Positions 1 to 39,199 of a stretch of DNA of 64,000 nt are shown in pieces. Numbering within the stretch: position 1 is the first letter of the stretch; each line of letters starts with the position of its first letter. The notes under the pieces are model-generated. The model had not been told where the DNA came from and did not search any database. It saw only the letters and a list, made by a program, of their open reading frames with translations. The position numbers and the translations under genes were made by a program. Origin of the DNA: an uncultured Ignavibacteriota bacterium (GTDB taxonomy: Bacteria; Bacteroidota; Ignavibacteria; Palsa-1295); assembly GCA_903900335.1 (NCBI GenBank), contig CAIUMP010000060.1, positions 1 to 64,000 on the forward strand, in the 5' to 3' direction.

Positions 1-3000
1 GCCCCACCCGCATCATGCTTGAGCTTGATGGTAAGCACTCCGTTAGTATGTTCCGTTGAATCCAGCACGCTCCATCCTGCCGGAACGAGCACGGCCCGCT
101 TCGTCAGCAAATTCCAATTGTAATGCACCTCGAACGACACGGTGCTAAAATTCACGGTGTCACCAATTCCATCGACCGAATGCACAAGTACCGACATCGT
201 GCCTCCGGCCATTGCGGAATCCGCGTGAGTAAGGGCGCTTGTCGCCATTGCAACTCGCGCTGTCGGAACGCCTCCAGAAGGTGTTGAGCCCGTCAGTGGG
301 ATGATCTTCAAAAAGCTTACCTCTCCAGAGTTCACAACCAGGTTCGCACCGTTGTTACCAACCCCATCCGGCTGATAGATAATGGTTATCGTGTCGCTCT
401 TTCCCGGACCAATTTTGTACGGGAATGTGCGCGGAGTCTTGAACTGGAATTGCGTCTGGTTCGCCGGACCAGAGATGCTAATGTTATCGACGGTCAGCGA
501 ATCGCAGCCTGTGCTCTCGATAATATAGGTCTTTGACGTCGCCAAGCAAGGCCTTGTCACGAAGGCTCCCCCATTATCCGTGAAATTCATCGCATGAGCA
601 GAGCCCTTCACCTGGTAATTGAGCGAGTAGGTGGTATCAATGTTCTGCCCGCGAAGCACGATCTGCGAACGCTGTGCAAGGTTGTTATCCGGCACCACAT
701 GGAATGCGACGTGTATGGAGTCGCCGGGGTGGATCGTGACTGGAAGATTCAGAGGGGGCGTCAGAGTCACTCCTGCAAAGCCAGCGACGAATGCGGAGTC
801 GATCACGACATCTTCACAATTACCAAAATTGTGTATCCAGAAGCCAGAGTCTGCTGTGGAGCATGGCGCAAGCGTTGGAAGTGAAAGTACTGTCGCGCTG
901 AGCGTCACTCTCCGCGAGATCGGGATCACATATCCTGAGATCGAGATGGCCTTCGGGTACGACTTGCCATCGACGGGATTATACACGTCCACCGTTGCCG
1001 AGTCCTTTACCTCGCCCGTGATGCCAGGTTGATGGTGGAAATGCACATGAAGCGTGTCACCGCTTCCCAGCTTCTGCGGGAATTTCGGACTTGTTACCGA
1101 GTATCCGAACGCACCATTGAACCTCGCTCCGGTTGCGATAATGCTGTCGCACGATAAGTTGACCAGCGTGCCCTCAATATCTTGCGATTGACACGCGAGG
1201 ATCGTATCGAACCGCAACACCGGTGTCAGCAGCGTGTCCTGGAATGTGGAGATCCCAAGTCCCTTGACCGAAATAAGTGTATCGACAAGTCTTCCATCCA
1301 GATCCATTGTCACACGCAGTGCGGCTTGGGAAGCTGTCGCGGAGCCCGGCTTGAAATGCACGAGGAACGAACGGAGCGAATCCGTGCTAAGCGTTATGGG
1401 GAAACTCACGGGCTCAAGCCAATACTGGCTATCGGCAGGATCCCACACAATATTTCGAATGGAAAGAGAAAGACATGCGCGATTGTGGATCGTGAACGTC
1501 CGTGCCGTTGCACTGCATGGAACATTAACAGCCCCCATATCGAGCGCCGTATCGCTCACTTCGGGTCGCATTGCCACATCGCTCAGAACCTGGAGGCTGA
1601 GCGTTAGCGTGGTATCCACGAGCTTCTGGCCGCTGAGATACCGAAGCTTGAGCTGTGTGGTGTAGGTCCCCTTGGGCTGTGAAACAATGTGTATGGGTAA
1701 CTGGAAACTCTCGGAAGCGTGAATGGTGTGCGAGAGCGCGAGCGATCCGAGCTTAAAGACGCTCGTATCGGTGAGTGAAGCGCGGATGAGGATAATGGAG
1801 TCGCAGTTGGAGTTCTTGATGGTGTAGGAAGTGTCCAGCGTCACGCAACGGTTCAGGAGCGCTACCTGCAATCCCAGGAAAGAAGGTTGAGCGCCCTGTT
1901 TCACACTCAAACTCACCGGCACTGAATCATTGACCTGCACACTCGTACCCCCGATCATGTGCAGCCGCACCATCGCATTGTAGTCCCCATCGTGTAACGC
2001 GTCGGTGAGGATGGGGATGGAGACGGAGTCGCCGGGAGCGATCTTCCGCGGTAATCCTGGCGGGAGAATATGAAAGATGGAAGAATCAGAGATGAGCGCG
2101 CTCGTGAGCGTTAACGTATCACAAGAGAGATTGCGAATGATGAGTGCGGAGTCTTTGGAAAAGCACGCGTATGGGGTCGTCATCGCGATGGAAGCATCGT
2201 GATTAAAGCTGACCGTCGTCTGACCAACGCCGGAAAGCGAGATGATCGTATCGACGAGCCTTGATCCGTTGTTGAATTCCAGCAACAATTGTCCCGTGTC
2301 CCGCGCCGCGAGTGTTGGAGAATAGATGATCTGAATACTATCCTTGCCGGATATGTACCGAGGCAAAGAAAGATTCTCAACGGAGAAGGCCGCGCCTCCA
2401 AAAAGGATCTGCGCTTTCACCAAATACGCCCCGCTGCATGCGCTTCCATACGTTATGTGCAACACCGAATCGTAGGTACGGCAACGTGCACCTGTATAGG
2501 TAAAGAGCTTCTTATCGAGCACGACCGCGGAGAGGGATGTCTGTGTTCCATCCGCGTTATACCAGAGATTGTTCGAAGCATCTCCGGCGAAGATCTCTTT
2601 TCCTTTGGAGTAGAACCTGGTATCGAAATTATTGGATGGACCACAAATGGGAAACCACGTTGTACCCTGGTCTGTCGAGAAGAAGAATCCGTTGGCCGCT
2701 GTTTGAATGAACAGTGCAGCATTCGTACCCATGACACAACCCGTCAGTCCAACGGTCGAGGGGAAATTATAGGGATTCGACCAACTTGCTCCCGCGTCTG
2801 CGGAACGGAAGACATACCCAAGATGCTCGGCCACCGCGTAGAACATATTCGATCCTGGCACTCCATACGGCGACCAACACTCGACGTGTAATTGTGGTGA
2901 CGGCTGTGTCCAGGTCACGCCGCCATCCGTGGAGTGTAAGAATCCCGGCGATGCTGTCAGAACGCTTAGGACTCCGTTATTTCCGCTAAAGGTTACTCCA

Positions 3001-3497
3001 TCGTGCTGTGTCGGAGAGAAGTTCGTCCACGTCGCTCCCAGGTTCGAAGATTGCAATGACTGCGCACTCCAGTTTACTACGACAAGCTCGCCAGAGACAG
3101 CATTGTAGCCAATGGACACCATCTGCCCCACCGGTGAGGTCAGCGCCGTCCATGTGAGGCCGCCATCAGTGGTAGTCCATACCCCTCCTGACGTCGCCCG
3201 GACACTACACCAGCCTTGCGAGGCATTCTTGAATGTGAACTGGGTGATCTGGTAGCCTGCAGAGGGCGTTGTCATCGCTTGCCAGGAGACCCCGTTGTTC
3301 GTCGTTCGATAGATCTCACCATTGGTCAGGCCAACGAAGCCTGTTGCGCTGGAGCCCTGTTGATCGAGAAAATAGACGCTCCGAACCTGCGACGGAAAGG
3401 CATAATTCATCGACCACTGCGCCGATGAAGTTCGTGCGCATACCAGCGAAAGGACAAGACCAAGAAAGAACGACGAGAACTTGAGTTGCTTCACCAT
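1..3497 (-). CDS. Large secreted BNR/YCF48-like and anchor-domain protein (3' end outside window)
   Basis: An uninterrupted minus-strand frame runs from an ATG at 3497 to the window edge, at least 1165 codons, so the C-terminus is missing. It begins with a clear signal peptide (MVKQLKFSSFFLGLVLSLVC, then cleavage near SSAQ). Residues about 30-370 carry repeated Trp-rich blades of the type TTDGGLTW, STDGGVTW, SADAGASW and STDQGTTW, typical of the YCF48/sialidase-like beta-propeller of secreted Bacteroidota proteins. From about residue 400 the sequence turns into repeated immunoglobulin-like modules with motifs such as IAPGDSVSIPI and IGPGKSDTITI, like the choice-of-anchor/ASPM-type domains that often precede a T9SS sorting domain. 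The sorting domain itself would lie outside the window. Function is unknown beyond an exported cell-surface role. No strong Shine-Dalgarno is seen. The plus-strand frames here are shadows. Confidence 0.85.
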   Translation of the reverse strand, partial: MVKQLKFSSFFLGLVLSLVCARTSSAQWSMNYAFPSQVRSVYFLDQQGSSATGFVGLTNGEIYRTTNNGVSWQAMTTPSAGYQITQFTFKNASQGWCSVRATSGGVWTTTDGGLTWTALTSPVGQMVSIGYNAVSGELVVVNWSAQSLQSSNLGATWTNFSPTQHDGVTFSGNNGVLSVLTASPGFLHSTDGGVTWTQPSPQLHVECWSPYGVPGSNMFYAVAEHLGYVFRSADAGASWSNPYNFPSTVGLTGCVMGTNAALFIQTAANGFFFSTDQGTTWFPICGPSNNFDTRFYSKGKEIFAGDASNNLWYNADGTQTSLSAVVLDKKLFTYTGARCRTYDSVLHITYGSACSGAYLVKAQILFGGAAFSVENLSLPRYISGKDSIQIIYSPTLAARDTGQLLLEFNNGSRLVDTIISLSGVGQTTVSFNHDASIAMTTPYACFSKDSALIIRNLSCDTLTLTSALISDSSIFHILPPGLPRKIAPGDSVSIPILTDALHDGDYNAMVRLHMIGGTSVQVNDSVPVSLSVKQGAQPSFLGLQVALLNRCVTLDTSYTIKNSNCDSIILIRASLTDTSVFKLGSLALSHTIHASESFQLPIHIVSQPKGTYTTQLKLRYLSGQKLVDTTLTLSLQVLSDVAMRPEVSDTALDMGAVNVPCSATARTFTIHNRACLSLSIRNIVWDPADSQYWLEPVSFPITLSTDSLRSFLVHFKPGSATASQAALRVTMDLDGRLVDTLISVKGLGISTFQDTLLTPVLRFDTILACQSQDIEGTLVNLSCDSIIATGARFNGAFGYSVTSPKFPQKLGSGDTLHVHFHHQPGITGEVKDSATVDVYNPVDGKSYPKAISISGYVIPISRRVTLSATVLSLPTLAPCSTADSGFWIHNFGNCEDVVIDSAFVAGFAGVTLTPPLNLPVTIHPGDSIHVAFHVVPDNNLAQRSQIVLRGQNIDTTYSLNYQVKGSAHAMNFTDNGGAFVTRPCLATSKTYIIESTGCDSLTVDNISISGPANQTQFQFKTPRTFPYKIGPGKSDTITIIYQPDGVGNNGANLVVNSGEVSFLKIIPLTGSTPSGGVPTARVAMATSALTHADSAMAGGTMSVLVHSVDGIGDTVNFSTVSFEVHYNWNLLTKRAVLVPAGWSVLDSTEHTNGVLTIKLKHDAGG

Positions 3498-19931: not shown

Positions 19932-22900
19932 CTAATTCAGATTTGACCAAGCAGAACCATCGTAACCTTCAAACTTGCCCGTGGTTGTGTTGTATCGGAT
20001 CATTCCCTGAGCTGGCGTAGATGGTCGCTGGGCAGATGTACCCACTGGGACAATGATCGCACCAGTACCGGCCACATCTAATTCTGCACGCGGTGTGCTT
20101 GTTCGGATACCAACATCCGCGCTGTGACCAAGCACCACCGCGTTACTCTGGCCAACGGTCGCACTCGCACCAATTGCTGTGGCATTGCTGATTCCACTAC
20201 TGCCGTTGCTGTTCGAGCCCAGGAAGGTGTTGTTGCTCTCCGTTGTGTTTGATGCTCCGGCCTTGTTGCCCGCGAATGTATTGCCGCCGCCCGTAGTATT
20301 ATTGTATCCCGCGTGGAATCCGCTGAAGGAGTTTGTGTCTCCAGAGGTATTGCTATAGCCTGCTTCCTTTCCGAAGAAGGCGTTCATGTCGCCGGTGTTG
20401 CTATAGCCAGCCCATGCACCGGTGAATGTATTGTTGCTGCCGGTCGTGGTCGAGTGCCCTGCTTCGAATCCCAACGCTGTGTTGTCGTTGGCAGACGTGC
20501 CATTGTAGCCTGCGTTCTTGCCGAAGTAGGAATTTTCGTAACCCGTTGTGTTCTGATTACCAGCATACACGCCTGTGAACGCGTTGCTATATCCAGTCGT
20601 CGTGAGCTGACCGGATAGCGTACCCGTAAACGTGTTGTTCGAACCGGTGGTATTCATCGTACCTACATATGCTCCTGTGAAGGTATTGTAGATGCCTGTC
20701 GTGTTCGATGAGCCAGTTGTCCTGCCGGCAAATGTGTTGCTATGTCCGGTTGTGTTATTGTACCCCGCCTCGTAGCCAGTAAAGGTATTGTCATAGCCCG
20801 TTGTATTCAGATAGCCAGACTGCGACCCCAGGAAGGTATTCTGGTTTCCAGTGGAGTTCGTGTATCCTGCCGTGTTTCCAATGAACACGTTGTCGGAGCA
20901 ATTGCCATTGTTGTACCCGGCGGCCACACCGACGAACGTATTGTAGCTACCGCCGAATGTGAAACCGGCTTGCGAACCCAGGAAGGTATTGTTGACCCCC
21001 GTGTTCGAAGTGCCTGCCGCATATCCGAGGTAGGTATTGTCATAGCCGCTCGTTGTCGATGCTCCGGCCAGTTTGCCGACGAATGTGTTGTCGGTGCAGC
21101 CGGAGCCGATCAGCGAGGTGTTGCCGGTGTTCCCGACGAGTGTATTATTGTGCAGCTCGCCGAGGGCGTTCGTAAGGTAGACGGCACTGCCAACTTTATA
21201 CGAGGCTCCTGTACTGATCGCTCCCGTCGCAGAGAAGGTCGTCCCCACGGCACCGCTTCCATCCACGTTGAAACTCGTGGACGCTTGCAGTGACGCAGAG
21301 TTATTAATGTAGGAGCCCGTAAGGGAGATTACATTCGAGCCATCGATCCCGATACCGGATCCGGCAGAGTACGCATTCGTTGCGTTGTCCCATGTGGTGC
21401 CGTTATAGACCTCCAGACGGGTCGACGTGGAATTGAACCGGATCATTCCCTGAACCGGCGACGCGGGCCGCTGGGCGGTTGTGCCATCTCCGAGAATGGA
21501 GGCTCCTGTCGTTGCAACATCGAGCGCCGCGCGTGGTGTGCTGGTGCGAATACCAACATCCGCGAGATTGCCGAGGATGACGGAATTGCTCTGCCCAACG
21601 ACGGCGTAAGCACCGATTGCTGTACCATTGACGATCCCAAAGACGCCATCGCTGTGCGAACCGATGCAGGTGTTGCTGTCGCGATTGGTGAAGGTGTTTC
21701 CGGCTAAGGAGCCAACAAACGTGTTGTTGTTTCCGGTGGTTACACTTGAACCAGCGGAGTTGCCGGTGAATGTATTGTTACTGCCGAAAGAAGTAAATCC
21801 GGCTGCAGTGCCAGTGTAGGTATTGTTGATACCCGTTTGATTGTTGTTGCCTGCTGTTACACCTATGAAGGTGTTATTGCTTCCGGAGAGATTTGCATTT
21901 CCAGCGAGTTGGCCGAAAAAGCTGTTGCTGGAGCCTGTCGAGTTTGCCAACCCTGCTCGCGAACCAACAAAGGTGTTCTGGTTACCGAGATTGTCGTTCG
22001 TCCCCGCGTTCCATCCCATGAAGGTGTTCTCGATAGCGGTCGTGTTGCTTGCTCCAGCACCTGATCCTTGGTAGGTGTTGAAGGAGCCGGTTGTATTGCC
22101 GTTGCCCGCATTGGTCCCGACAAACGTGTTAGAAGCACCACTCGTATTCTGAAGCCCCGAGCCCGAGCCCACGAAAACATTGTTCGCGCCGGTGAGATTG
22201 TTCATACCAGCGTTCTTGCCTTCGAAGGTGTTTTCGCTACCTGTCGTATTCGCGAGACCAGCGTCATTACCCGTGAAGGTGTTGTCGTTACCAGAATTAT
22301 GCTGTCCCGCTGCGCCTCCGGTGAAGGTGTTCCAATTACCGGTCGTGTTCGCAAAGCCGGCAAGCGCACCAGTGAAGGTATTTCCTCTACCCGTCGTCGT
22401 ATTGCGGCCCGTGCGCTGCCCAACGAACGTGTTGGAATCGCCGGTTGAGTTTACCGTTCCTGCTTCCATTCCGAAGAAGGTATTCGATACGCCAGTCGAG
22501 TTATTGCTGCCGGCAAATGCTCCGGCGAAGGTGTTGTAGTAGCCGGTGGTGTTGCTTTCTCCAGCGAGATTGCCAATAAACACGTTGTCGTGACCTAGGG
22601 TATTTCCCAGGCCGGACTCGAAGCCCATGAACACGTTGTTCGTACCAGTCGTGGTGTTCATTCCCGATTGTGAACCGACGAATGTATTGCCATTGGAGGT
22701 AGTCTCGCTGTGCCCGGCCTCCCACCCGATGAACGTATTGTCGAAGGATGTGGTATTCGCGAAGCCAGCTTGATAGCCAACGAACGTGTTGAAGCTCGCG
22801 GCGTCGACTGCGCCAGCACCGGAACCAACGAATACATCAAAGGAGCCACCACCAGCCGCAGCAGCAGACTTTCCTATGAAGACGTTGTCTGAGCCATTTG

Positions 22901-25900
22901 ACGCTGCCGCTCCTGCGGATTTGCCGATGATCGTGTTGCCTGTACCGCCGCCTCCAGCTAGTGTGCTGTTCGTCGTGTTGCCGACAAGTGTATTATTGCT
23001 GGTCTCGGGGCCCGCATTCGCGAGATAGATGTTCCCACCCACTTTGTATGAGGCCGCAGTATTGATCGCGCCGGTTGCCGTGAAGGTTGTGCCCACCGTG
23101 CCGCTTCCATCAACATTGAAGCTCGCGCCCGATTGTTGCGAAGCGGAGTTGTTGATAAAGCTACCCGAGAGTGAAATGACGTTCGAACCGCTAATCGCAA
23201 TTCCTGTGCCTGCGGAATAGCCGTTCGTAGCGTTTGACCATGCTGCGCCATCGTATGCTTCTAAGTGGCCGGAAGTTGTATTGTAGCGCACCATTCCCTG
23301 AACAGGCGTCGCGGGACGTTGTGCAGTCGATCCCACGGCCACAATTATCGCGCCAGACGAAGCAACATCCAACGCCGCACGTGGGGTGCTTGTTCGAATG
23401 CCGACATCCGCGTTGTGGCCGAGAACTACTGCGTTGCTCTGGCCAACGGTTGTATTTGCTCCGATCGCAGTTGAGTTCGTGTCACCCGCAGTACCATTAC
23501 TTTGAGCGCCGAGAAAAGTGTTGCTATTTTCCGTGGTATTGGATAAACCCGATCCGCTACCGGAGAACGTGTTGCCACTTCCGGTCGTGTTATTGTACCC
23601 GGCCTTCCAGCCGCTGAACGCATTGCTATCACCAGCAGTGTTGAGGAACCCCGCCTGCGCGCCAATGAAGGTATTGGAGTAACCACCATAATTCCAATAT
23701 CCAGAATTGGAACCTGTGAATGTGTTATAGCTACCGGTGTCTCGATTACCAGCAGTAAAACCCGTGAATGTATTTTCGCTTCCATGGAGATTGCTTACTC
23801 CGGACTGCGTGCCATAATACGAATTGTCGGATCCTGTAGTGTTGTTCTGGCCCGAGTTGAAGCCCGTGAATGTGTTGTATTGTCCCGTCGAGTTGCCGGA
23901 ACCAGCTAGCGCACCCGTAAACGTGTTGTTGCTTCCAGTGGTGTTGGACTCGCCAGCCATTTTTCCGGTAAAGACATTGTTTGAGCCTGTCGTGAGGCCG
24001 AACCCAGCTTCAAATCCGGTCACGGTGTTATCGGAGCCGGTCTGATTGCCATAGCCAGCTTGTGTTCCGAGGAATGTATTATTGCTCGCAGTAGTGTTGT
24101 TATATCCCGCAGCCATTCCCAGGAAGACGTTGTAGTTGGTGTTAATATTATTATAGCCAGCCTGGTATCCGACGAACGTGCTGTATCCGCCAGTGTTGGA
24201 GAATCCCGCGCCCGAACCGATGATGGTGTTATAGACCCCAAGAGTACTGGTACCTGCCTGATACCCAAGAAGAGTGTTATCGTAACCGCTCATGCAGGAA
24301 GCCCCTGACTGTTTACCGACGAAGGTGTTTCTCGGTCCAGTAAGTATCGAATTTGTTGTGTTACCAACAAGGGTATTGTTACTAGTCTCTGTCCCTGCAT
24401 TCGAGAGATAAGCATTCCCACCAATCTTGTAAGATGCCGCAGTATTGATCGGTCCCGTTGCCGTGAAGGTTGTGCCCACTGTGCCGCTTCCATCAACATT
24501 GAAGCTCGCGCCCGATTGTTGCGACGCAGAGTTGTTGATATAACTTCCTGAGAGGGATGGCAAGTCAGCCGCAACAAGTGCGCGGAATCCGGGAGCAGCC
24601 GTTGCGCCCGAACCCGGTCCGGCAAATACCAGATTTGCGGACGTTGTCGTAGCACCGGTGCCACCGTTTGCGACGGGGAGCGTGCCGGTAACTTCTGCAG
24701 TTAGGCTGACATTCGAAGCTGTAAGAGCGGATGTGCCATTGCCATGCACGACACCGGTGAGAGTTGCTGCACCTGTGCCGCCGCTGCTAACAGGCAAGGC
24801 GACGGTGAAGGCCGCGTCATTTGCGATGAGGCTTCCACCGCTTGTGACATGGAAAGTATTACCTCCATTTTGCAGTGATTGGGCCGTGAGGTTTCCACCG
24901 ACGGACATATTGTTGTCGGTGCGCAGAGCTGTGCCGGATCGATATAAATTCACATCACTCGCGGCACCGATAAAGAGCTTGCCAGTATTCGTACCGATCA
25001 CGAGGTTACCCCCAACAGTGCCGTTCCCATCAATGTTGAAGTTCGCGCTTGATTGCTGCGAGCTGGAATTGTTGATGTAATTCCCGGACAGTACAGGTGT
25101 AAGATCAGCTGCGACAAGTGCACGGAATGCGGGTGCTGCTGATGCACCCGATGTTGGGCCTGCGAAGACGACATTCGCCGAAGCAGTCGTCGCGCCCGTG
25201 CCCCCATTCGCGACGGCAACTGTGCCAGTAACATTCGCTGCGGTACCGGTCGTGTTTTGATTCAGTGTTGGCACATCTGCAGCTTGAATGGCCGAACTTG
25301 CCCAAGCAGCGCCTGTGCTGCGTAAGTAATTGCCAGCGGAGCCAGTAGCGGCGACACCCGTTCCGCCATTCGCAACCGGAAGTGTGTTCGTCACTTCGGA
25401 GTTGAGCGAGACCTGGGACGACGATAGATTAGTACCGGATCCGCTGGAATGCAAGATTCCTGATGGCAATTGAGTGTTGATGCTACCACCAACGGTCAGT
25501 TGATTGCCGACCGAGCCAGTGCCAGAAACGTTAAAGCTTGCTGTCTGCGCACTCGCACTTTGGTTCTTGATGTATCCGCTTCCGAGATCCGGTAGATCAT
25601 TCGATGTGATCGCACTCCATGTGGGAGCCGCACTTCCTGCGCCAGTACCGGTCTGTGCTAAGTACATCTTTGTCGCACTTGTATTGCCAGCAAGTCGCGT
25701 TCCGGTGCCGGCCGATCCACCGTAAGGAATGTCACCGAGTGCTGTCAGCGGACTAAGTGCGTCATATCCTGCGCTCTTCGTAGCCGCACCCGTGCCGCCG
25801 TTTGAGATCGCAACCACGCCTGTTACATTCGAGGCAGTGCCTGTCGTACTTTGGTTGAGCGTGGGGACATCGGCGGCTTGCAGTGCAGAGCTGACCCACG

Positions 25901-28900
25901 CTGCACCATTGCTGCGAAGGTAATTTCCACTCGCGCCAGTCGTAGTAACGCCTGTGCCGCCGTTTCCGATCGGAAGAGTGCCATTGACTTCGGAGCCAAG
26001 AGCAACACTCCCAGCAGTCATCGCACTGCTACCATTGCCATGCAACACTCCTGTTAGAGTTGTCGCACCAGTACCGCCATGTGTGACGGCGACGGTGCCA
26101 GTAACGTTCGCGGCATTGCCCGTGGTGTTGGCAGTGTTATCTGGAATATCCGCTGAAGCGAGTGAACCAGACGTCCACGCGCCCGCACCATCCCCACGCA
26201 GAAATTGTGTTGCAGTGCTGGAGGTAAGTCCCGTGCCACCGTGAGCAACGTTTACAGTTGGTAACTGCGAGTTCGTCGCGCTGCCGGATATTTGTGAAAA
26301 GGAGTAATCGCCGCTTGTTGCCACAACGTCTCCAATGCGACTGAATACACTGGTTACTACTCCACCTCCAGTGATCGGCTGCCAGGATGCAGTCGAGCCA
26401 TTCGTCGTGAGCACCTTGCCAGAATTTCCACTCTCGGATGGAAGGACGCCATCTATGCTTGCGACACTAAGTGCGTTGCCCGAACCGCTGCTAACAACAA
26501 TTCCTGAACTCAGGCCAGCATATAGGCCACCAGTGCCAAGGTAGAGTGAATGCCAACGATGCGTTGCATCTCCGAGGGCCGTGACGTCATCGGTGCCAGG
26601 CGTTGAAGGACCTGCGTCTCCTGTCGCACCGGTTGCGCCATTCGTACCATTGGCACCTGCTGCTCCAGTTGGACCCGCCGCACCGTTCGTACCGTTAGCT
26701 CCGGTCGCTCCCGTCGCTCCTGTTGGGCCAGCGACACCCTGCGAACCTTGTGGGCCAGTCGCACCAGCTACTCCGTTTGTACCATTCGTACCCGCGACTC
26801 CTGTTGCTCCTGTCGGCCCAGCAGCACCCTGCGAACCTTGTGGGCCAGTCGCACCCGTCACTCCGTTAGTACCATTCGTGCCGGCAGCTCCTGTTGCTCC
26901 TGTCGGCCCAGCAGCACCTTGTGAACCCTGTAGGCCCGTTGCACCTGTTGCTCCGTTTGTACCATTCGTACCCGCGGCTCCTGTTGCTCCGGTCGGGCCA
27001 GCGACACCCTGTGAACCCTGTGGGCCAGTCGCACCCGTCACTCCGTTAGTACCATTTGAACCAGCCGCTCCGGTTGGACCAGCGACACCCTGCGAACCTT
27101 GTGGGCCTGTTGCACCCGTCGCTCCGTTAGTACCATTTGTACCAGCTGCTCCGGTTGGACCGGCGACACCTTGCGAACCCTGTGGGCCTGTTGGCCCGAC
27201 TGCGCCCTGCGCCCCAGGTGCACCGTCGGTTCCGTTCGAACCATTCGTACCCGCGGCTCCTGTTGCTCCGGTCGGACCAGCGGCACCTTGCGAACCCTGT
27301 GGCCCGGTCGCACCTGTTGCGCCGTTTGTCCCATTCGTGCCTGCCGCTCCCGTTGCTCCTGTCGGGCCAGCGACACCTTGCGAACCCTGTGGGCCGGTGG
27401 CACCGGTTACCCCGTTCGTACCATTCGTACCCGCCGCTCCCGTCGCTCCTGTCGGGCCGGCGATACCTTGCGAACCCTGTGGGCCGGTGGCACCGGTTGC
27501 CCCGTTCGTACCGTTCGTACCCGCGGCTCCTGTTGCTCCAGTCGGACCAGCTGCACCTGTTGGGCCGGTGGGTCCGGAAGCCCCGTTTGCCCAAGCCAAA
27601 TTGCCACTTCCATCCGTTTCAAGAAATTGATTGGCGTGTCCGGCCTGGGATGGAAGAATGTTATTCGCTGCAGCAGCGGAAGTAGTTGCGCCGGTACCAC
27701 CATGGGTGATGTCAACAGTTGGCAATTGCGCATTCGCAGCAGATCCAGAGAGTTGTGAAAAGGAATAGTCTCCGCTTGTCGCGACGACCGCACCAGTTCG
27801 TCCATACACACTTGAGACGGAACCACCTCCACCGCTAACGGGCTGCCATGAAGCAGTCGATCCGTTCGTTTGCAAAACTTTCCCCGATTGCCCCGTTTGA
27901 TCGGGAAGAAGTGCCGTCAGCGCTCCTGTTGCGGTCGTTGAACCTGTTCCACCATTGGCGATCGCTACTGAACTAAGCCGTGAGGAGTTAATGGTTGAAG
28001 CACTCGCTGCGTTGATGGCATCGATCAAGTTATTTCCCTGCGCTGCATTCGTTGGTAGCGTTTGGGTCGCGGACCAGTTATTCGGCTGCGTTGGATCGAG
28101 CGCGATGGTTCTGTCCGCAGTTAGGTCACCGCCTCCGCTCAACCCGGTGCCAGCGCTGATGCTGCGAGCATCCAAAAGGAGATTGCCGTTCGTTGCCGGG
28201 AGCACTACAGTTGCATCGCTGGACATTGTTCCGGATGGCGTTTCTAATACAACTTGGTGTCCCCCGCTTGTTATCCCCTGCGCAAGCTTGATCACGCCTG
28301 GGTTGCCGGAAACATTATTGCCGATGAATGTCTGTCCGTTAGCGGTATTGAAAAATGTTGACGAAGCAACGGTAAGTGTGCCTGTGATGGATGTGTTTGC
28401 CTGTACCTGCTCGCCCTTTGCGTTGCGAGGCAATGCGGTATTACTGTTTCGCAGAAGGATCGTATTCGATGCTGTGTCCAGAACGGCTGCGATGCCGTCT
28501 CCCGTCTGGATCGAAATATCACGAGCGTTTCCCGAGAGTCGTGCGCCGTTGATCGAGATCGAACGCAGATAATCTGCAGCGATCTTCGGAGCGGTGATCG
28601 ACTTATCCGGGACATTCAGTGCATACGGCGAAGCATTGAGCGCCGCGAACGGCTTGAGTTCTGCCGCATCACCAATCTGCACGCTTACCCAGAGTGGTCT
28701 GTCCAGCAGACCGGATTCCGGCAACGGATGCTCACCTGACCCCAACCCGATATTGAATATTCCACCAATGACCCACACAGTGTAGCTGTCGTGCCACAAC
28801 TCTTGCGTACCGGCTTCGTCTGCATACAGCCGCATCGTGATCGAATACTCGCCGTCCTTTGGCAGAGTGCCGTCTGTACTGCTATGAAGCACGCCTTGGT

Positions 28901-29087
28901 AGGTAATGATCTTCGGCATCGGCTTTGCGACTGAAGCGGTCGCTGGCGTAGTGCCCTCCGATGGCATTACGAGGCGCGGCGTGGCGATGCTTAGCGCATC
29001 GACGCTCTGCGCCGAACAGAGGCTCAGCGGGAGCAGAGAGGCGAGCAATAGTAATCCAAGGCAAATTGGGAGCTTTGTGCGTTTCAT
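19932..29087 (-). CDS. Giant surface protein: tail-fibre-like, collagen-like and 17-residue repeat regions
   Basis: A 3051-residue secreted protein starting at 29087, where [20 protein letters not shown] gives a signal peptide (cleavage near CSAQ); the frame extends to 29216 without a signal. Residues about 50-200 resemble the base of tail-fibre-like surface proteins ([39 protein letters not shown]). Then come about ten GGTG modules ([20 protein letters not shown]), split by a Gly-X-Y collagen-like tract at about residues 500-830. Three blocks of Asn/Thr/Gly-rich 17-residue repeats ([15 protein letters not shown] type) each end in [12 protein letters not shown] and a RYNT...YDGxxW module. The protein ends in [10 protein letters not shown] with no recognisable T9SS domain or S74 chaperone. 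An adhesin or fibre is inferred. A TPR-LuxR regulator lies directly upstream. Confidence 0.85.
20195..21155 (-). repeat. 17-residue repeat block C of the giant protein
   Basis: Within residues about 2644-2964, the pattern NTFxGxxAGxxNTTGxx recurs about every 51 bp (17 residues), for example [34 protein letters not shown] and [17 protein letters not shown]. It closes with [15 protein letters not shown] and the [19 protein letters not shown] cap. A beta-solenoid with an Asn ladder is inferred from the regular spacing. Confidence 0.85.
21650..23005 (-). repeat. 17-residue repeat block B of the giant protein
   Basis: Residues about 2027-2479 hold the longest of the three blocks, roughly 25 units such as [34 protein letters not shown] and [17 protein letters not shown]. 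It is followed by the same [19 protein letters not shown] cap as the other blocks. Confidence 0.85.
23495..24390 (-). repeat. 17-residue repeat block A of the giant protein
   Basis: Residues about 1566-1864 carry units such as [34 protein letters not shown] and [17 protein letters not shown], capped by [19 protein letters not shown]. The DNA flanking blocks A and B is nearly identical (about 23041-23165 and 24435-24540), showing recent duplication or gene conversion. Confidence 0.85.
26600..27582 (-). repeat. Collagen-like Gly-X-Y tract with 90-bp units
   Basis: An unbroken Gly-X-Y run of about 110 triplets (residues about 500-830), built largely from a 30-residue unit with [16 protein letters not shown] followed by [12 protein letters not shown]. 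Neighbouring units differ by a few codons. Such tracts form trimeric collagen-like stalks in bacterial surface proteins. Confidence 0.92.
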
Positions 29088-29381
29088 ATTTAAGTTGCGA
29101 TTAATCAGACGGAGCAGAAAAACGAAATCACGTGCACCACCACTCTCCCCATTCCATTGAGAGCGATGTGAGAAAGAGCCTGGTAGCAACCCAGACGACA
29201 TCTCGGCGGCGATCATACATCCCGATGCTGGCGGCCCGCCATTCCAGGCAGACGCGCATTCATCTGAGGCAAAGCTACGGGCGCATTCCGTATTCCCGTT
29301 ACTGATTTAGTACGTAGTGGTGAGAATGTAGATCGTGAGGGCGACGGAGGATACAGTCCTGGTGAGGCGAGCTCGAATCAC
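29088..29381. other. Intergenic region upstream of the giant surface-protein gene
   Basis: 294 bp between the regulator stop and the giant gene start. A TAGCTTTG on the minus strand (29277-29270) fits the Bacteroidota -7 form TAnnTTTG, about 183 bp before the start, but no matching TTG box was seen at -33. No terminator hairpin is obvious. Read-through from the regulator is possible. Confidence 0.3.
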
Positions 29382-31055
29382 CTACATCCTGGCCAGGTGT
29401 AGCATAAGATCGTGTTCACGACTCGTAAGCTTCATCTTCCTTCTTATTCGGAGACGGTGGCTTTCTATCGTGCGCTCAGAGAGGCACAGAAGACGGGCCA
29501 TCTCTTCCGATTTGAGATTCATTCGCAACAGAGAACAAATGCGGAGCTCTTGGGAGGAGAGTTCTGGGTACAGCTCTATCAGTCGTTTTGTAAACTCCGG
29601 GTGGGCTGCTTTGAACTGCGTATCAAACTTGGTCCAATCCACGGACTTGCAGGGCAGGTTCTTGATGCGATCTCTCAGCTCTTTCCCAACCGGTTCTGAG
29701 ACCGAGATCTTTCGCGCCATTCGCAATAGATCTTCTCGAAGATCCGAAAGCAACTCTGTTTGAGAAATGAGCTGAAGCGTCGTGTTGGAGAGATCACGTT
29801 CCATCTGTGCGACTCGTAGCTGCTCCAACTCTCTTGCGTGCCTATCGCGCTCCATTTGAAGCAATAGATAGGTTTGTGTGACGCTGGATTGGATAGATGG
29901 AGCGCTAACGAGTGAGGTACTGATGCGCTCCGATTCTTCCTTCGCGAGTAGTGCATCTTCGAACTCCTTACGAGCACGATGAAGGCGCGATTTGATCTTG
30001 TAATAGTCCAACAACACCATCTGCGGCGCTTCTGGAAAGAAGACATTTCTGAAGTCCAGAAGCGCCCGCTCTGCTTCGTCGTATCGCTCCATGCCGATGA
30101 GTGCGATTGCGCGGTGAATGTGCGCTTGCATTACCTCGTTTCTTCGAGGACTATGAAGTGCAGGCTCCAACTCGTTCAAAGCTTCCGCGTAACGGCCAAG
30201 CTCCGTCAGGGTGTAGGCAATGTATCGCCGTGGTACGTCTGTTCGAAGCTCGAACCCTGCAGCAATGGTCGTTGAGTATGATTGACGAAAATTCTCCAGT
30301 GCTTCCTCAAGTTTGCCGAGCCGAAGATTGACCAAGCCTGTTACCTTCAACACCTCCATCTCAACGTACGGACTTGGAGGTGTCCATTCTGCAGCGGCCG
30401 GTGATTCTGCTTCGGGCTTTTCCATGACCCTCGCGGCAAGTTGAAGCGCATCATCGAGTCGCCCGGTGCTGTAAAGGATGGAAGCAAGATTCGTAAGCGC
30501 ATTCCTGGCTGCCGAGATATTGCCTGCAGCTTCAAACGCAGAGAATGATGCACGCCCGGCCTCTGCCGCTCCGATGACATCACCAGCCATGTATCGTGTG
30601 CTACAGAGCCCTTCGTACGCGCATCCTTGAGCAGTCAGGTCTGCGTGCTCCTTTGCGATCACAAGTGCGCGTTCCAGTATTCCAAGGATAGTGGGGAAAT
30701 CACCGCTTTGGTGAAACTCGATAAAAGCCAGCCCCACCATGGCCCGAGCCTCTAATCCACCATACCCCAATGCATGAGTCTGATGAAGGGCGGTTTGGTA
30801 CGCTTCTTTCGCGGTGGTATAGGAGATGTCGCTCATCGCCTCGGCCTCCAGCAGACGGAAGCTCCACTCGGCGTACTCGTGTTTCACCGCTCGTGCAAGT
30901 CGAATCCCCTCAGATACGAGCGTCTCCGCTACGGAGTGTTGTGTCCACAAGGCCTCTTCGGCCTGCTTCAATAGCTGGTCGATCTCGTCGTGAGAAGGTT
31001 TGACAGTTGGTTTCTTCACCGCGCAGAAGTATGTAGAAACGTGCGTCCGAAGCAC
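29382..31055 (-). CDS. TPR-repeat transcriptional regulator with LuxR-type DNA-binding domain
   Basis: A 557-residue cytoplasmic regulator. Residues about 20-400 are alpha-helical repeats of TPR type (for example YGGLEARAMVGLAFIEF, LVNLRLGKLEEALENFRQSY and YAEALNELEPAL). A Leu/Glu-rich stretch (about 410-470) looks like a coiled coil. The C-terminal helix-turn-helix begins at SSQELRICSLLRMNLKSEEM and ends with LSERTIESHRLRIRRKM, the LuxR/GerE form. There is no receiver, PAS or membrane segment, so the signal must enter through the TPR part. The annotated ATG at 31055 may be early; a GTG at 31019 (KKPTVKP follows) is an alternative. It is the gene directly upstream of, and co-oriented with, the giant surface-protein gene, which is a natural target. 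Confidence 0.88.
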   Translation of the reverse strand: MLRTHVSTYFCAVKKPTVKPSHDEIDQLLKQAEEALWTQHSVAETLVSEGIRLARAVKHEYAEWSFRLLEAEAMSDISYTTAKEAYQTALHQTHALGYGGLEARAMVGLAFIEFHQSGDFPTILGILERALVIAKEHADLTAQGCAYEGLCSTRYMAGDVIGAAEAGRASFSAFEAAGNISAARNALTNLASILYSTGRLDDALQLAARVMEKPEAESPAAAEWTPPSPYVEMEVLKVTGLVNLRLGKLEEALENFRQSYSTTIAAGFELRTDVPRRYIAYTLTELGRYAEALNELEPALHSPRRNEVMQAHIHRAIALIGMERYDEAERALLDFRNVFFPEAPQMVLLDYYKIKSRLHRARKEFEDALLAKEESERISTSLVSAPSIQSSVTQTYLLLQMERDRHARELEQLRVAQMERDLSNTTLQLISQTELLSDLREDLLRMARKISVSEPVGKELRDRIKNLPCKSVDWTKFDTQFKAAHPEFTKRLIELYPELSSQELRICSLLRMNLKSEEMARLLCLSERTIESHRLRIRRKMKLTSREHDLMLHLARM

Positions 31056-34696: not shown

Positions 34697-37600
34697 GTGA
34701 AACATCCTCGATCTCTTCACGCCAAATTTGTGCTCATCCTTCTCGCCGGTCTCCTGGTTTTGCAAGATGGCATTCGCGCTCAAACGCAAGTGCCCTACCA
34801 CTTCCCACTCCAGCCAAGTCATGTGGCGGACGGCGCGGGTTCTTACACAGCAAATCTCACGATGGGAAGCCTCAGCGCAAATGGGCTGGGCCAGTGGACG
34901 ATTAACCCTGATAATCATAGCACTGGCACACACCACGGAAGGCTTGAATGGTATTTGCTCGGCAATAATATCGCTCAGGCGGGTACAGGTGTCCCGCCGG
35001 GTATAGTCGATGCCGGAGACCTGACACCATCCCCGGCTAGCGATGCAAACATGCAGTTTGGATGGATGACTTCAGTGTCGAATCTTAATGGCGTGACAGC
35101 CTTCATCTGTCCATCTTCCGACTGGTCAACGTTTCGAGTTTGGATCGCACGAGATGGTTCGGGCGATGGATATTACTTCCCTCCTGATGCACCGCTCCAA
35201 TCGAACTTTATGGATTTTGATCCAAGCAATAGTGCAACATTTAAAGTGGGAAGGTCTCCAATTTCGGAGCTGATTCCCATTAATGTACTCCCTTATGTGA
35301 ACTCCAACTGCCCCGCACCGCCCACCCACCTCTTCACCCCCGTTCTTATCGACGGAGTCTATGAGGACGATAGTAGGGATGTATTCAATGCGGCAATCGA
35401 CAAGAACTTTCTTTATTTCACCTGGGTCAGCGATTTCAGCTATTATCAACCGAACGTTAATTTTCCTGGATCATGCGATCATTGGGGGCCTTACAGACCT
35501 AACGATCCCACTTACAGGGAGCAATTCTTCGTAGTCGCAATTGACCTTAGAACCGGACACGTAGCTTCTGCAAATTATCCATTTCATTTTTCAGCCGGGG
35601 CACCGACGAGCGGACGCCGTCCGTCAATAGCCTGCGACGTTAGAAATGCACCTGATAATCCTGAATTCTATCTCGCTTGGATTGACCAGATCGGAGTAGG
35701 CGGAGGTAGCAGTGTCCAATGTGCACATTGTACCGACAATGGATCGGGACCAACGATAGCGCAACTAGTAACATTGCAAAACAAGATGTTTATACCCCCG
35801 CACTCCAGTGGTTCATGGCTTTACTACTTTCCAGAACGTATCCATCTATTAGTCGCAAGCGACCCTAATCGTGGAGACCATAATCCGGACATTGGAGTGT
35901 ACATCATCACGCCCCGAGGCACAGGCATCGGCGGTTCGACGCAACCTACTGCTAGTTATTTGAATAATGGTCGAGGAAGTCTCATTTTGCATAGGTTCGA
36001 GAATGGAACGATGGCACCAAAGACAACAGCGGATTATGTCGATGGGTATCTCTTGGCTGGTCTCGGCTCCCCGCTCGACCCTAATACATTGAGGGCATGG
36101 CCATTTTTTGTGATCAACAGCCATATCACGGCGTTTGCAAATCCATACGACGGCTGGTACGATCTAGGAACCGCCGTCTTCGATGAGTTTCATTGTCTCT
36201 ATCAACTTGATCGGTCCGGTTACACGCCTGACATAACAGACCACACTTCTCCTCTCATGATCGTGCGTGGAATGGATAATGGGGATAATCCTGTGGTTAC
36301 TGGTGACCACGCTGGAATAACAGACACACGTCGTTGCGTGAATATGCAGACAACGGACAATGGCACGTCATGGATATTCGTCGATGAACCAATGTCGAAC
36401 ATTGCCTACACTGCCGCCGCAAATCAAATGGGAATTCACGTTCATTGGAGGGCACAACCCGCGCTTGGCGCAGCCATTCATTACTACTCACGTGACACGC
36501 GGCAGTTCGATGAGCCAATTGAAGAGAATACAATTGCGAGCTACCGTTGCGAGCTTGCGGACGGAACTTCTCATGGCGGATCATTCGGTGCGGAAGTTAA
36601 CCAAAGTAGAACCCTCTCCCTCTGGAGCGATCCGAGCGTATTTACTTCTGTAGAGCTCCTTCCTGTGAGCAACAGTGCTATTTTGCAGTCCGTCCACACT
36701 CAAAGCACGATGGGTGTAACGCTCGGTTTGAGTGAGTCCCAAGAGAACCCAATTTACGTCCATGCTCCTTCACTTGTGCTATTCCCGGACTTCCACATCC
36801 AACTCACGGGTACAGATGACGCAATTTTAATTGGCCAAGCGACGAAGCTAAATTATTGGGGCGTTGTGAACGAGGTCGCCAACCGATGGGGTCCTTTTGA
36901 AGGTAGTCTTGGCACTTTCACCCTTCAGGGTGCCGCCGGTACGTCACTTGCCCCGGGTTATCCATTTGGTATGCCTCAATGGCCTCCGCTTGTCACTCTT
37001 GGTATTGGTACTGATTTCAGAATTGTGAACTCCATGTCGTTCTCTGCTTATGCGACGACTTTCAATTTCTCGTCTCAAGCCACGAGTTATGCTCCTGCGA
37101 AGGTTACCTTCCTTGGATGTAATGTCGATATTGAAGGCTCGTATTTCTGGACAGGGGACTATGCACTTAACGGCATAGAGATACCGTTGGAGGATAAGCT
37201 ACTTTCCGACCCTCAGCACCCTTTTTCTCCTCATCCTTTCACATTATACGATAACTTCATCATTGGTGCTTTGCCATCGAAGATAGCTCTTGATGGCAAT
37301 AACAGCACTAACCACCTGGGAGATGTCACTATCACGGGCGGGGGATTCTATTCCAGCCACATCTTTGCGGAGGCGAATGATAATCAAATCACGATTTCGG
37401 GTTCGTGGTTCTTTGACATCAAGGACTACGCGATTTCACTCTTTCGCGACCTCACTTCATCACCTCCATCTTCCTACTCGAACTCCTCTATTACGGGATG
37501 TGAATTCCACAATTTCCTCGACGCCTCCGATAAGAAGTCTGCTATCTACTTAGATGGATTCACGCTGAGTCATCCTAATATGGTGATAAGCGGTAATACT

Positions 37601-39199
37601 TTCGATGCCAGCGGGACAGTAAAGAACATGGCTGCCATCAACATTATTAACTCAGTGGCTGAGGTTCTTGCGAACACAATTGACGGAGGGACACCTTCTT
37701 CTTATGACAGAGGAATTGTATTCCATTCTGATCAGCAAAGGACTAGTTTAATTTGCTCGAATTCGATTGCGAATGTAGGGAATTCCACTCTGACCGGTGC
37801 GGGAATTCTCTCCGACAATTTTCAAGGGTTTTGCGAGAGTAATAGCGTCACTTCAAGTGATCGAGGCCGTGTGAGCGGCAGTGGTGACTTCTCATATGAA
37901 TTCTTCGATAACTATTCTGGCAATCGATCGACCGGGGTTGAGCAAACATCCGGTGCCTCTACAATTGATATGACTCAATGGACGCAGGCCGGAACCGTCT
38001 GGCAAGCATTCACGACCGTTTCTGGGAATGGGACAAGTGATGGGGCAGCGCAAATTCGGCTTGTTCCAGGTTCGGAATGGTATAGAAACAAAGACAACGT
38101 CTTTGTGTCATCTGGGCTTCTCGTTGATTGTCCCACCTGCTCATCTCACTACTTTATAGGGGGTATCGGCGGCGTATTTTGGGGCTCGATTTCACTCACT
38201 TTGCATCCCTCCATTCAAGGAACCGGACCTGGCTTTGCTTCGAATATCGAGTATATTCTATCTACTCAAAACACCTCTTCATACACGAACACGTATACCA
38301 ATTTGACATGTAGTGGCGCGCCCTCGATGTCCAATCGGAAAAAGGATGAAGATCACACTATGTCTGTTCTCATGGATAGCATCTCCTGTTATACTCTACA
38401 GAAGACAGGCCATGATCTCGGGGTTGGCGATAAATACCAGGCGTCGTATGACACGCTCATGCATTTCATTGACAGCTGTGCTAACGAAAGTAATGCGTGG
38501 GCTGCTTTTGGAAGCATGTCGGCCGCTAACTCAGATCGCAACCAAGATCCAAATCGATATCGGGAGTTCCGTGATTGGCTCAAGAAGGTGCTCTACTATA
38601 ATCTGACCTCGAAATACTATTGCTCGGACGTAGATGCTATGCTCAGTACTTTTGATTTCTTCGATTCTTCTCGAGGTTATGATGCCAATGGTCGTTGTGC
38701 GGTTCTTAAATACCTCCTTCAAAGTGGAAAGTGCCCCGACTACGCGAGCCATGATAGCCTCTTCTACCTGCATCAGCGACAAGGCCAACATCAAGGTTGG
38801 ATAGACACGACCGCACGTTTAGGCAAAGACACGAATATTTACAAGCTCGACACGACCTTACCCTCTCTCGAACAACTCGGTCTTACGACTCTCTATGGTC
38901 CTCCGGGGTCTGTAACTCCTCCGATAGAAGCACCAAATCTCCTGAGTGGCGTTCGCATCACTGACAATCCTTTCGAGAAGACGACAGATGTCATCTATGG
39001 ACTATCGAAGGATGCGGCTGTTGAAATCGAAGTCTTCGATGTGCTGGGCCATGTCATCTCAGGGGATGATCGAGTGAAAGTGCAATCGACGGGTGTTCAT
39101 CGTGTGCCGTTGGATTTGCACAGCTCTCCAAGTGGGGATTATTACGTGCGTTTGAGTGCCAACGGGCGTTCAACTACTCTGAAGATGCAGAAGAAATAA
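34697..39199 (+). CDS. Large T9SS-exported surface protein with beta-helix-like region
   Basis: A 1500-residue secreted protein, GTG start at 34697, with a signal peptide (KFVLILLAGLLVLQDG, cleavage near RAQTQ). The first half is beta-rich without a family I can name. Residues about 850-1110 look like a right-handed parallel beta-helix, with short repeated turns such as ITGGGFYSSHIFAEANDNQI, ITGCEFHNF, VISGNTFDASG and LANTIDGGTPSS. The C-terminal about 80 residues are a T9SS type A sorting domain (ITDNPFEKTTDVIYGL, then VEIEVFDVLGHVI, then SGDYYVRLSANGRSTTLKM). It is followed by a strong terminator. Base composition looks more AT-rich than its neighbours. Function is unknown; pectate-lyase-like folds often bind or cut polysaccharides, but no catalytic motif was recognised. 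Confidence 0.85.
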   Translation: MKHPRSLHAKFVLILLAGLLVLQDGIRAQTQVPYHFPLQPSHVADGAGSYTANLTMGSLSANGLGQWTINPDNHSTGTHHGRLEWYLLGNNIAQAGTGVPPGIVDAGDLTPSPASDANMQFGWMTSVSNLNGVTAFICPSSDWSTFRVWIARDGSGDGYYFPPDAPLQSNFMDFDPSNSATFKVGRSPISELIPINVLPYVNSNCPAPPTHLFTPVLIDGVYEDDSRDVFNAAIDKNFLYFTWVSDFSYYQPNVNFPGSCDHWGPYRPNDPTYREQFFVVAIDLRTGHVASANYPFHFSAGAPTSGRRPSIACDVRNAPDNPEFYLAWIDQIGVGGGSSVQCAHCTDNGSGPTIAQLVTLQNKMFIPPHSSGSWLYYFPERIHLLVASDPNRGDHNPDIGVYIITPRGTGIGGSTQPTASYLNNGRGSLILHRFENGTMAPKTTADYVDGYLLAGLGSPLDPNTLRAWPFFVINSHITAFANPYDGWYDLGTAVFDEFHCLYQLDRSGYTPDITDHTSPLMIVRGMDNGDNPVVTGDHAGITDTRRCVNMQTTDNGTSWIFVDEPMSNIAYTAAANQMGIHVHWRAQPALGAAIHYYSRDTRQFDEPIEENTIASYRCELADGTSHGGSFGAEVNQSRTLSLWSDPSVFTSVELLPVSNSAILQSVHTQSTMGVTLGLSESQENPIYVHAPSLVLFPDFHIQLTGTDDAILIGQATKLNYWGVVNEVANRWGPFEGSLGTFTLQGAAGTSLAPGYPFGMPQWPPLVTLGIGTDFRIVNSMSFSAYATTFNFSSQATSYAPAKVTFLGCNVDIEGSYFWTGDYALNGIEIPLEDKLLSDPQHPFSPHPFTLYDNFIIGALPSKIALDGNNSTNHLGDVTITGGGFYSSHIFAEANDNQITISGSWFFDIKDYAISLFRDLTSSPPSSYSNSSITGCEFHNFLDASDKKSAIYLDGFTLSHPNMVISGNTFDASGTVKNMAAINIINSVAEVLANTIDGGTPSSYDRGIVFHSDQQRTSLICSNSIANVGNSTLTGAGILSDNFQGFCESNSVTSSDRGRVSGSGDFSYEFFDNYSGNRSTGVEQTSGASTIDMTQWTQAGTVWQAFTTVSGNGTSDGAAQIRLVPGSEWYRNKDNVFVSSGLLVDCPTCSSHYFIGGIGGVFWGSISLTLHPSIQGTGPGFASNIEYILSTQNTSSYTNTYTNLTCSGAPSMSNRKKDEDHTMSVLMDSISCYTLQKTGHDLGVGDKYQASYDTLMHFIDSCANESNAWAAFGSMSAANSDRNQDPNRYREFRDWLKKVLYYNLTSKYYCSDVDAMLSTFDFFDSSRGYDANGRCAVLKYLLQSGKCPDYASHDSLFYLHQRQGQHQGWIDTTARLGKDTNIYKLDTTLPSLEQLGLTTLYGPPGSVTPPIEAPNLLSGVRITDNPFEKTTDVIYGLSKDAAVEIEVFDVLGHVISGDDRVKVQSTGVHRVPLDLHSSPSGDYYVRLSANGRSTTLKMQKK

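Follow-up and report, generated by a model that had tools for sequence, protein, structure and literature searches.

A probable giant mosaic adhesive fibre with phage-type shaft and cap modules from the Kapaibacterium group

The protein of 3051 residues encoded on the minus strand between positions 19932 and 29087 of the window, the 64,000-nucleotide stretch of DNA analysed here, is probably a giant mosaic adhesive fibre resembling the non-S74 mosaic adhesive trimers (MATs) of Bdellovibrio, and as such a Sec-exported member, with a phage-type shaft, of a chromosomal family of the Kapaibacterium group. In Bdellovibrio bacteriovorus, 21 MATs make up one superfamily, in which a conserved, beta-rich N-terminal domain of about 130 residues and no PDB homologue directly follows the signal peptide, and phage-like trimeric shafts lead to diverse tips, with 13 members ending in S74 and eight lacking it; those tested are displayed on the surface, one of them binds prey glycans, and the set has been described as serving prey recognition by this predator (Caulton et al. 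2024, PMC10769870). The fibre presented here is unusual in its size and composition, its family design being known from Bdellovibrio and its parts from phages.

Gene model and modular architecture

The fibre gene runs from an ATG at 29087 to a stop codon ending at 19932, within a minus-strand open reading frame (19932-29216) that encodes 3094 residues from its first ATG; the in-frame ATG at 29216 is a possible start, but the one at 29087, where the signal peptide begins, is more likely. From the N-terminus, all on the minus strand, a signal peptide read from the translation (29010-29087, likely cut before Q in the A↓Q pattern of the paralogues) is followed by a conserved domain of 156 residues (YQG...PYALNVPD; 28452-28919), a first GGTG-bearing linker or shaft segment (27585-28319), a collagen-like tract (26604-27584), and a GGTG-rich shaft with most of the protein's GGTG motifs (24417-26603). 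Three units of 17-residue repeat block, loop and cap complete the chain: block 1 (23475-24377) with cap 1 (RYNT...YDGAAW; 23220-23408, loop included), block 2 (21627-22994) with the degenerate cap 2 (RFNS...YNGTTW; 21372-21560 with its loop), and block 3 (20184-21146) with cap 3 (19935-20117 with its loop), the natural end of the protein.

The first-pass annotation had proposed this 3051-residue frame, which is real and to which we add the strand, and most of its part list stands: its roughly ten GGTG modules are 11 motifs at residues 422-2090 of the 3094-residue frame, its 330-residue Gly-X-Y tract is corrected to 327 residues (109 uninterrupted triplets, residues 545-871), its three repeat blocks lie at residues of about 1614-1914, 2075-2530 and 2691-3011 in the same numbering, and its RYNT...YDGxxW cap recurs in three copies. 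Pfam and NCBIfam scans also agree with it that neither a T9SS sorting domain nor S74 closes the protein. What it missed is the key part, the 156-residue domain behind the signal peptide.

The 17-residue unit, already described as extremely regular, is matched 51 times by a strict pattern across the three blocks, with a lag-17 self-identity of 0.38-0.39 per block against 0.11-0.12 in shuffled controls (maximum of 500 shuffles 0.16-0.19) and near-invariant N at position 1 (50/51), G at position 5 (51/51) and G at position 9 (49/51). Where the 51 aligned units have identical residues, their codons coincide at a rate of 0.3645, and codon usage alone predicts 0.3643; through this synonymous-site saturation all trace of recent DNA duplication has been lost. 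With codons saturated and the protein pattern intact, the units are old and kept by selection. Recent expansion at the DNA level is seen only in the collagen-like tract, which is coded by tandem repeats of 81-90 bp that are 82-89% alike and whose length may vary between strains. An assembly error, a frame-shift chimera or recent slippage, the first of which had been named as a possible undoing of the long frame, was rejected because the 17-residue units are synonymously saturated with their pattern kept and because homologues in other assemblies are open and free of internal stops; the frame is thus genuine.

An AlphaFold2 monomer model forms a solenoid over the 17-residue repeats with moderate confidence, in keeping with the solenoid half of an earlier proposal of a beta-solenoid with an Asn ladder, whereas the ladder is unsupported because a fold search of the repeat model against the PDB gave no significant match. 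At the sequence level the repeat block matched nothing in Pfam or the PDB, YadA-type head repeats included.

Phage-type modules, the N-terminal domain and its paralogue family

Searches with the 17-residue block and the cap recovered both from phage tail and structural proteins, with matches in 122 phage records, and among PHROG families the window fibre itself hits those of tail fibres and of virion structural proteins. The phage protein vir515_00039 (phrog_23837) consists of an N-terminal part, about 11 of the 17-residue repeats and an S74-like end; gp37 of Roseobacter phage CRP-1, also with 17-residue repeats, is built like it. The cap further resembles the C-terminus of the solved protein Gp49 (E 0.0075). 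Measured against a phage tail fibre, the protein has shaft and tip modules in common with it and carries a signal peptide, and a phage structural gene cluster is absent. The phage-like part of the former description as a phage-tail-fibre-like surface protein is hence borne out by the occurrence of repeat and cap in phage tail proteins; the surface location we infer.

The N-terminal domain is of another kind. Its model is a beta-sandwich, of high confidence over the first 95 residues, for which Pfam gave no match above chance, PDB sequences no match, and a fold search against PDB and viral structures no significant match; nor was the domain found in phage records, plasmid records or IMG/VR at the sensitivity used. 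As the cap and the 17-residue repeats occur in phages and the N-terminal domain was not found there, the protein is a mosaic of a cellular N-terminal domain and phage-type fibre parts.

A search with this domain gave 23 matches in the fibre's own genome, from which 21 genes were recovered, and 25 in the congener G001; every one of the 12 further genomes taken from the family also had matches, as had 31 of the 61 genomes overall, and a profile search found the domain in 49 of the 198 Bacteroidota genomes sampled. In at least 21 paralogues it directly follows the signal peptide. Four of the own-genome paralogues, the window fibre included, exceed 2000 residues (2088 to 3391 counted from the signal peptide). 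Among 17 complete members (136 pairs), the N-terminal domains match in 135 pairs and the last 150 residues in nine, so the family is conserved at one end and diversified at the other. The first-pass annotation had recognised parts of the protein and not the whole: the parts are indeed phage-type, and the whole now finds its place in a set of at least 21 paralogues that have an N-terminal domain in common. Similar proteins also exist in related genomes, as had been suggested for checking, with homologues that end in the cap like the window fibre in three other genomes (G009, G025, G043) and a close homologue in Candidatus Kapaibacterium sp. (Bacteroidota according to NCBI); our literature search found no study of Kapabacteria adhesins.

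Several members vary the design. Paralogue C7 (L016:3956-10219) contains a collagen tract and 17-residue repeats and has for its tip a Kelch beta-propeller at the C-terminus, and on contig C1 of G001 (L105:7700-9465) two adjacent mini-proteins of 327 and 262 residues consist of signal peptide, N-terminal domain and cap with no shaft, shaft length therefore being an independent variable. Fibre frames on contigs C10, C23, C39, C25 and C57 hit contig ends or stop early, some of them within collagen-coding repeats; the family may therefore be larger than counted and its lengths underestimated.

Export, genomic context and rival readings

Export and assembly had been called unclear, a remark that stands for the outer-membrane step and the anchor. 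Nearly all paralogues carry a Sec signal peptide ending in an A↓Q-type site (18 of 21 by script; the window fibre and paralogue C60b by eye), a pattern that corresponds to the Bacteroidetes Q-rule (PMC5837995). No transmembrane or lipid anchor was seen in the fibre; a lipoprotein anchor was considered and rejected, LSLC↓S being a poor lipobox whose Cys is missing in most paralogues. T9SS type A sorting domains (TIGR04183) number at least 150 in the 4.0 Mb genome, one of them in the window open reading frame at 34697-39199. NCBIfam detects none in the window fibre and none occurs at the end of any paralogue, and the fibres therefore need another or an indirect export route. No universal partner gene was found, a T9SS-tagged gene being adjacent in three paralogues only. 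In these three related fibre genes (C21, C17 and C58; L083:6637-12034, L084:6663-12178 and L085:2-5679), a T9SS-tagged gene of about 600 codons lies directly downstream on the same strand, its product ending in LPDGVYYLRVSSGGFVETRRVVVGR in two cases and being cut off in C58; they may form a partner pair, and G001 has a similar pair of fibre and T9SS gene (L099:2399-7851).

Directly upstream of the fibre gene, 0.3 kb away on the same strand, lies a TPR-LuxR (GerE) gene (29382-31055) that possibly encodes its regulator. Regulators of this type recur beside fibre genes (29382-31055 in the window, L100, and G001 C1:238520, C10:81419 and C4:299440), and in G009 they flank a fibre gene on both sides. 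A count over three genomes places five of the 22 regulators no more than 3 kb from a fibre gene, where 1.2 would be expected (P about 0.006, with approximate coordinates and a test chosen post hoc). The other neighbours are housekeeping genes (DnaJ, KdsD, KdsA, methylmalonyl-CoA mutase, a polysaccharide tyrosine kinase, MltD and tRNAs), with no tail genes among them; the Wzz/tyrosine-kinase exopolysaccharide gene adjoins the fibre gene and a Cps4B-like capsule gene is near, both on the other strand.

This context bears on three other readings. The protein could be a secreted structural fibre of a biofilm, sheath or matrix that self-assembles through its collagen and solenoid segments with no specific partner recognition: a collagen rod and solenoids of such regularity have a structural character, the polysaccharide genes are close by and no membrane or lipid anchor was seen. 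We consider this unlikely, since the polysaccharide genes are on the opposite strand and a kept N-terminal domain with almost wholly different C-termini is more in keeping with binding tips that have diversified than with a single matrix polymer. The PHROG matches and the occurrence of repeat and cap in phage tail proteins could be read as signs that the gene belongs to a prophage, tailocin or extracellular contractile injection system, as a remnant or as an active component, an origin that is scarcely credible for a gene with housekeeping neighbours and 21 dispersed copies, whose product has a signal peptide and an N-terminal domain not found in the phage, plasmid and viral collections at the sensitivity used. 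Cargo of the usual type IX secretion system or a trimeric autotransporter, finally, might be expected from the wealth of sorting domains in the genome and from YadA/UspA1-type head repeats in paralogues; the window fibre, however, has no hit to the T9SS sorting model or the YadA anchor and ends, like its homologues elsewhere, in the cap, which makes such a route highly improbable.

Proposed mechanism and comparison with known systems

In light of these results, we favour a MAT-like adhesive fibre and propose that Sec would export the chain, whose N-terminal domain would then hold it at the cell surface. Three chains may wind together, with GGTG segments, collagen rod and 17-residue solenoids forming a long stalk that bears the cap; at 0.86 nm per triplet, the collagen tract alone would be about 90 nm long. 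Caps and solenoid faces could bind a surface such as the glycans of neighbouring cells, and with its three block-and-cap units spread along the chain the fibre would be multivalent. It would work like a Bdellovibrio MAT of the non-S74 type. Surface location, trimerisation and a ligand are presumed here. More tentatively, and with rather low probability, the YQG...PYAL domain might be a general, as yet unnamed surface address through which diderm bacteria from various phyla put phage-derived fibres on display without recourse to T9SS or to autotransporter barrels; relatives of Kapaibacterium would use it for a repertoire resembling the MATs, under TPR-LuxR regulators of its own, to recognise other cells.

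The literature searched does not describe the Kapaibacterium group as predatory. A family of MAT design there, with more than 20 members and some of about 3000 residues, would make such repertoires a wider bacterial device assembled from phage-tail parts, extending beyond prey recognition by predators, and the common N-terminal domain offers a handle for finding the receptor that holds the fibres on the cell.

Among known systems, the phage tail proteins vir515_00039 and CRP-1 gp37 have the repeat of NSFFGMNAGYTNTTG type in common with the fibre, at 48% identity over the best vir515 stretch, but they lack a signal peptide and the N-terminal domain, end in an S74-like chaperone and are much shorter. 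The cap module of Prochlorococcus cyanophage Syn33 (GTTAQRP...RYN...YDG) is 57% identical to that of the fibre over loop and cap, although in cyanophage proteins, unlike here, it lies close to the N-terminus or within proteins that are short. The heads of YadA, UspA1 and BpaC are likewise built of short Gly/Asn-rich roll repeats, and UspA1 has sequence matches in paralogues C60b and C53; the window 17-residue repeats match none of them and Pfam gives no hit to the YadA C-terminal beta-barrel anchor in the window fibre. Bacterial collagen-like adhesins (Scl1/Scl2, Lcl) have a similarly long Gly-X-Y tract, which in this mosaic fibre is a single segment among others, all matches being below NCBIfam cut-offs.

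The closest likeness is to the MATs, with about 21 genes per genome, a signal peptide followed by a conserved beta-rich domain, phage-like shafts, a diversified other end and non-S74 members; the two N-terminal domains, both lacking a PDB homologue, are alike in description. Paralogue C60b (2782 residues) matches the crystal structure of the MAT Bd2133 (E 1.2e-13) as well as the trimeric adhesins UspA1 (E 1.4e-18) and BpaC (E 4.2e-12), and the loops of the window fibre match Bd2133 weakly and not significantly (E 0.52). Unlike Bdellovibrio, the host is a Bacteroidota rich in T9SS cargo, in whose genome S74 was not detected, though some relatives have it; and whereas MATs typically measure about 1000 residues, the fibre reaches 3051 and includes a collagen tract and 17-residue solenoids.
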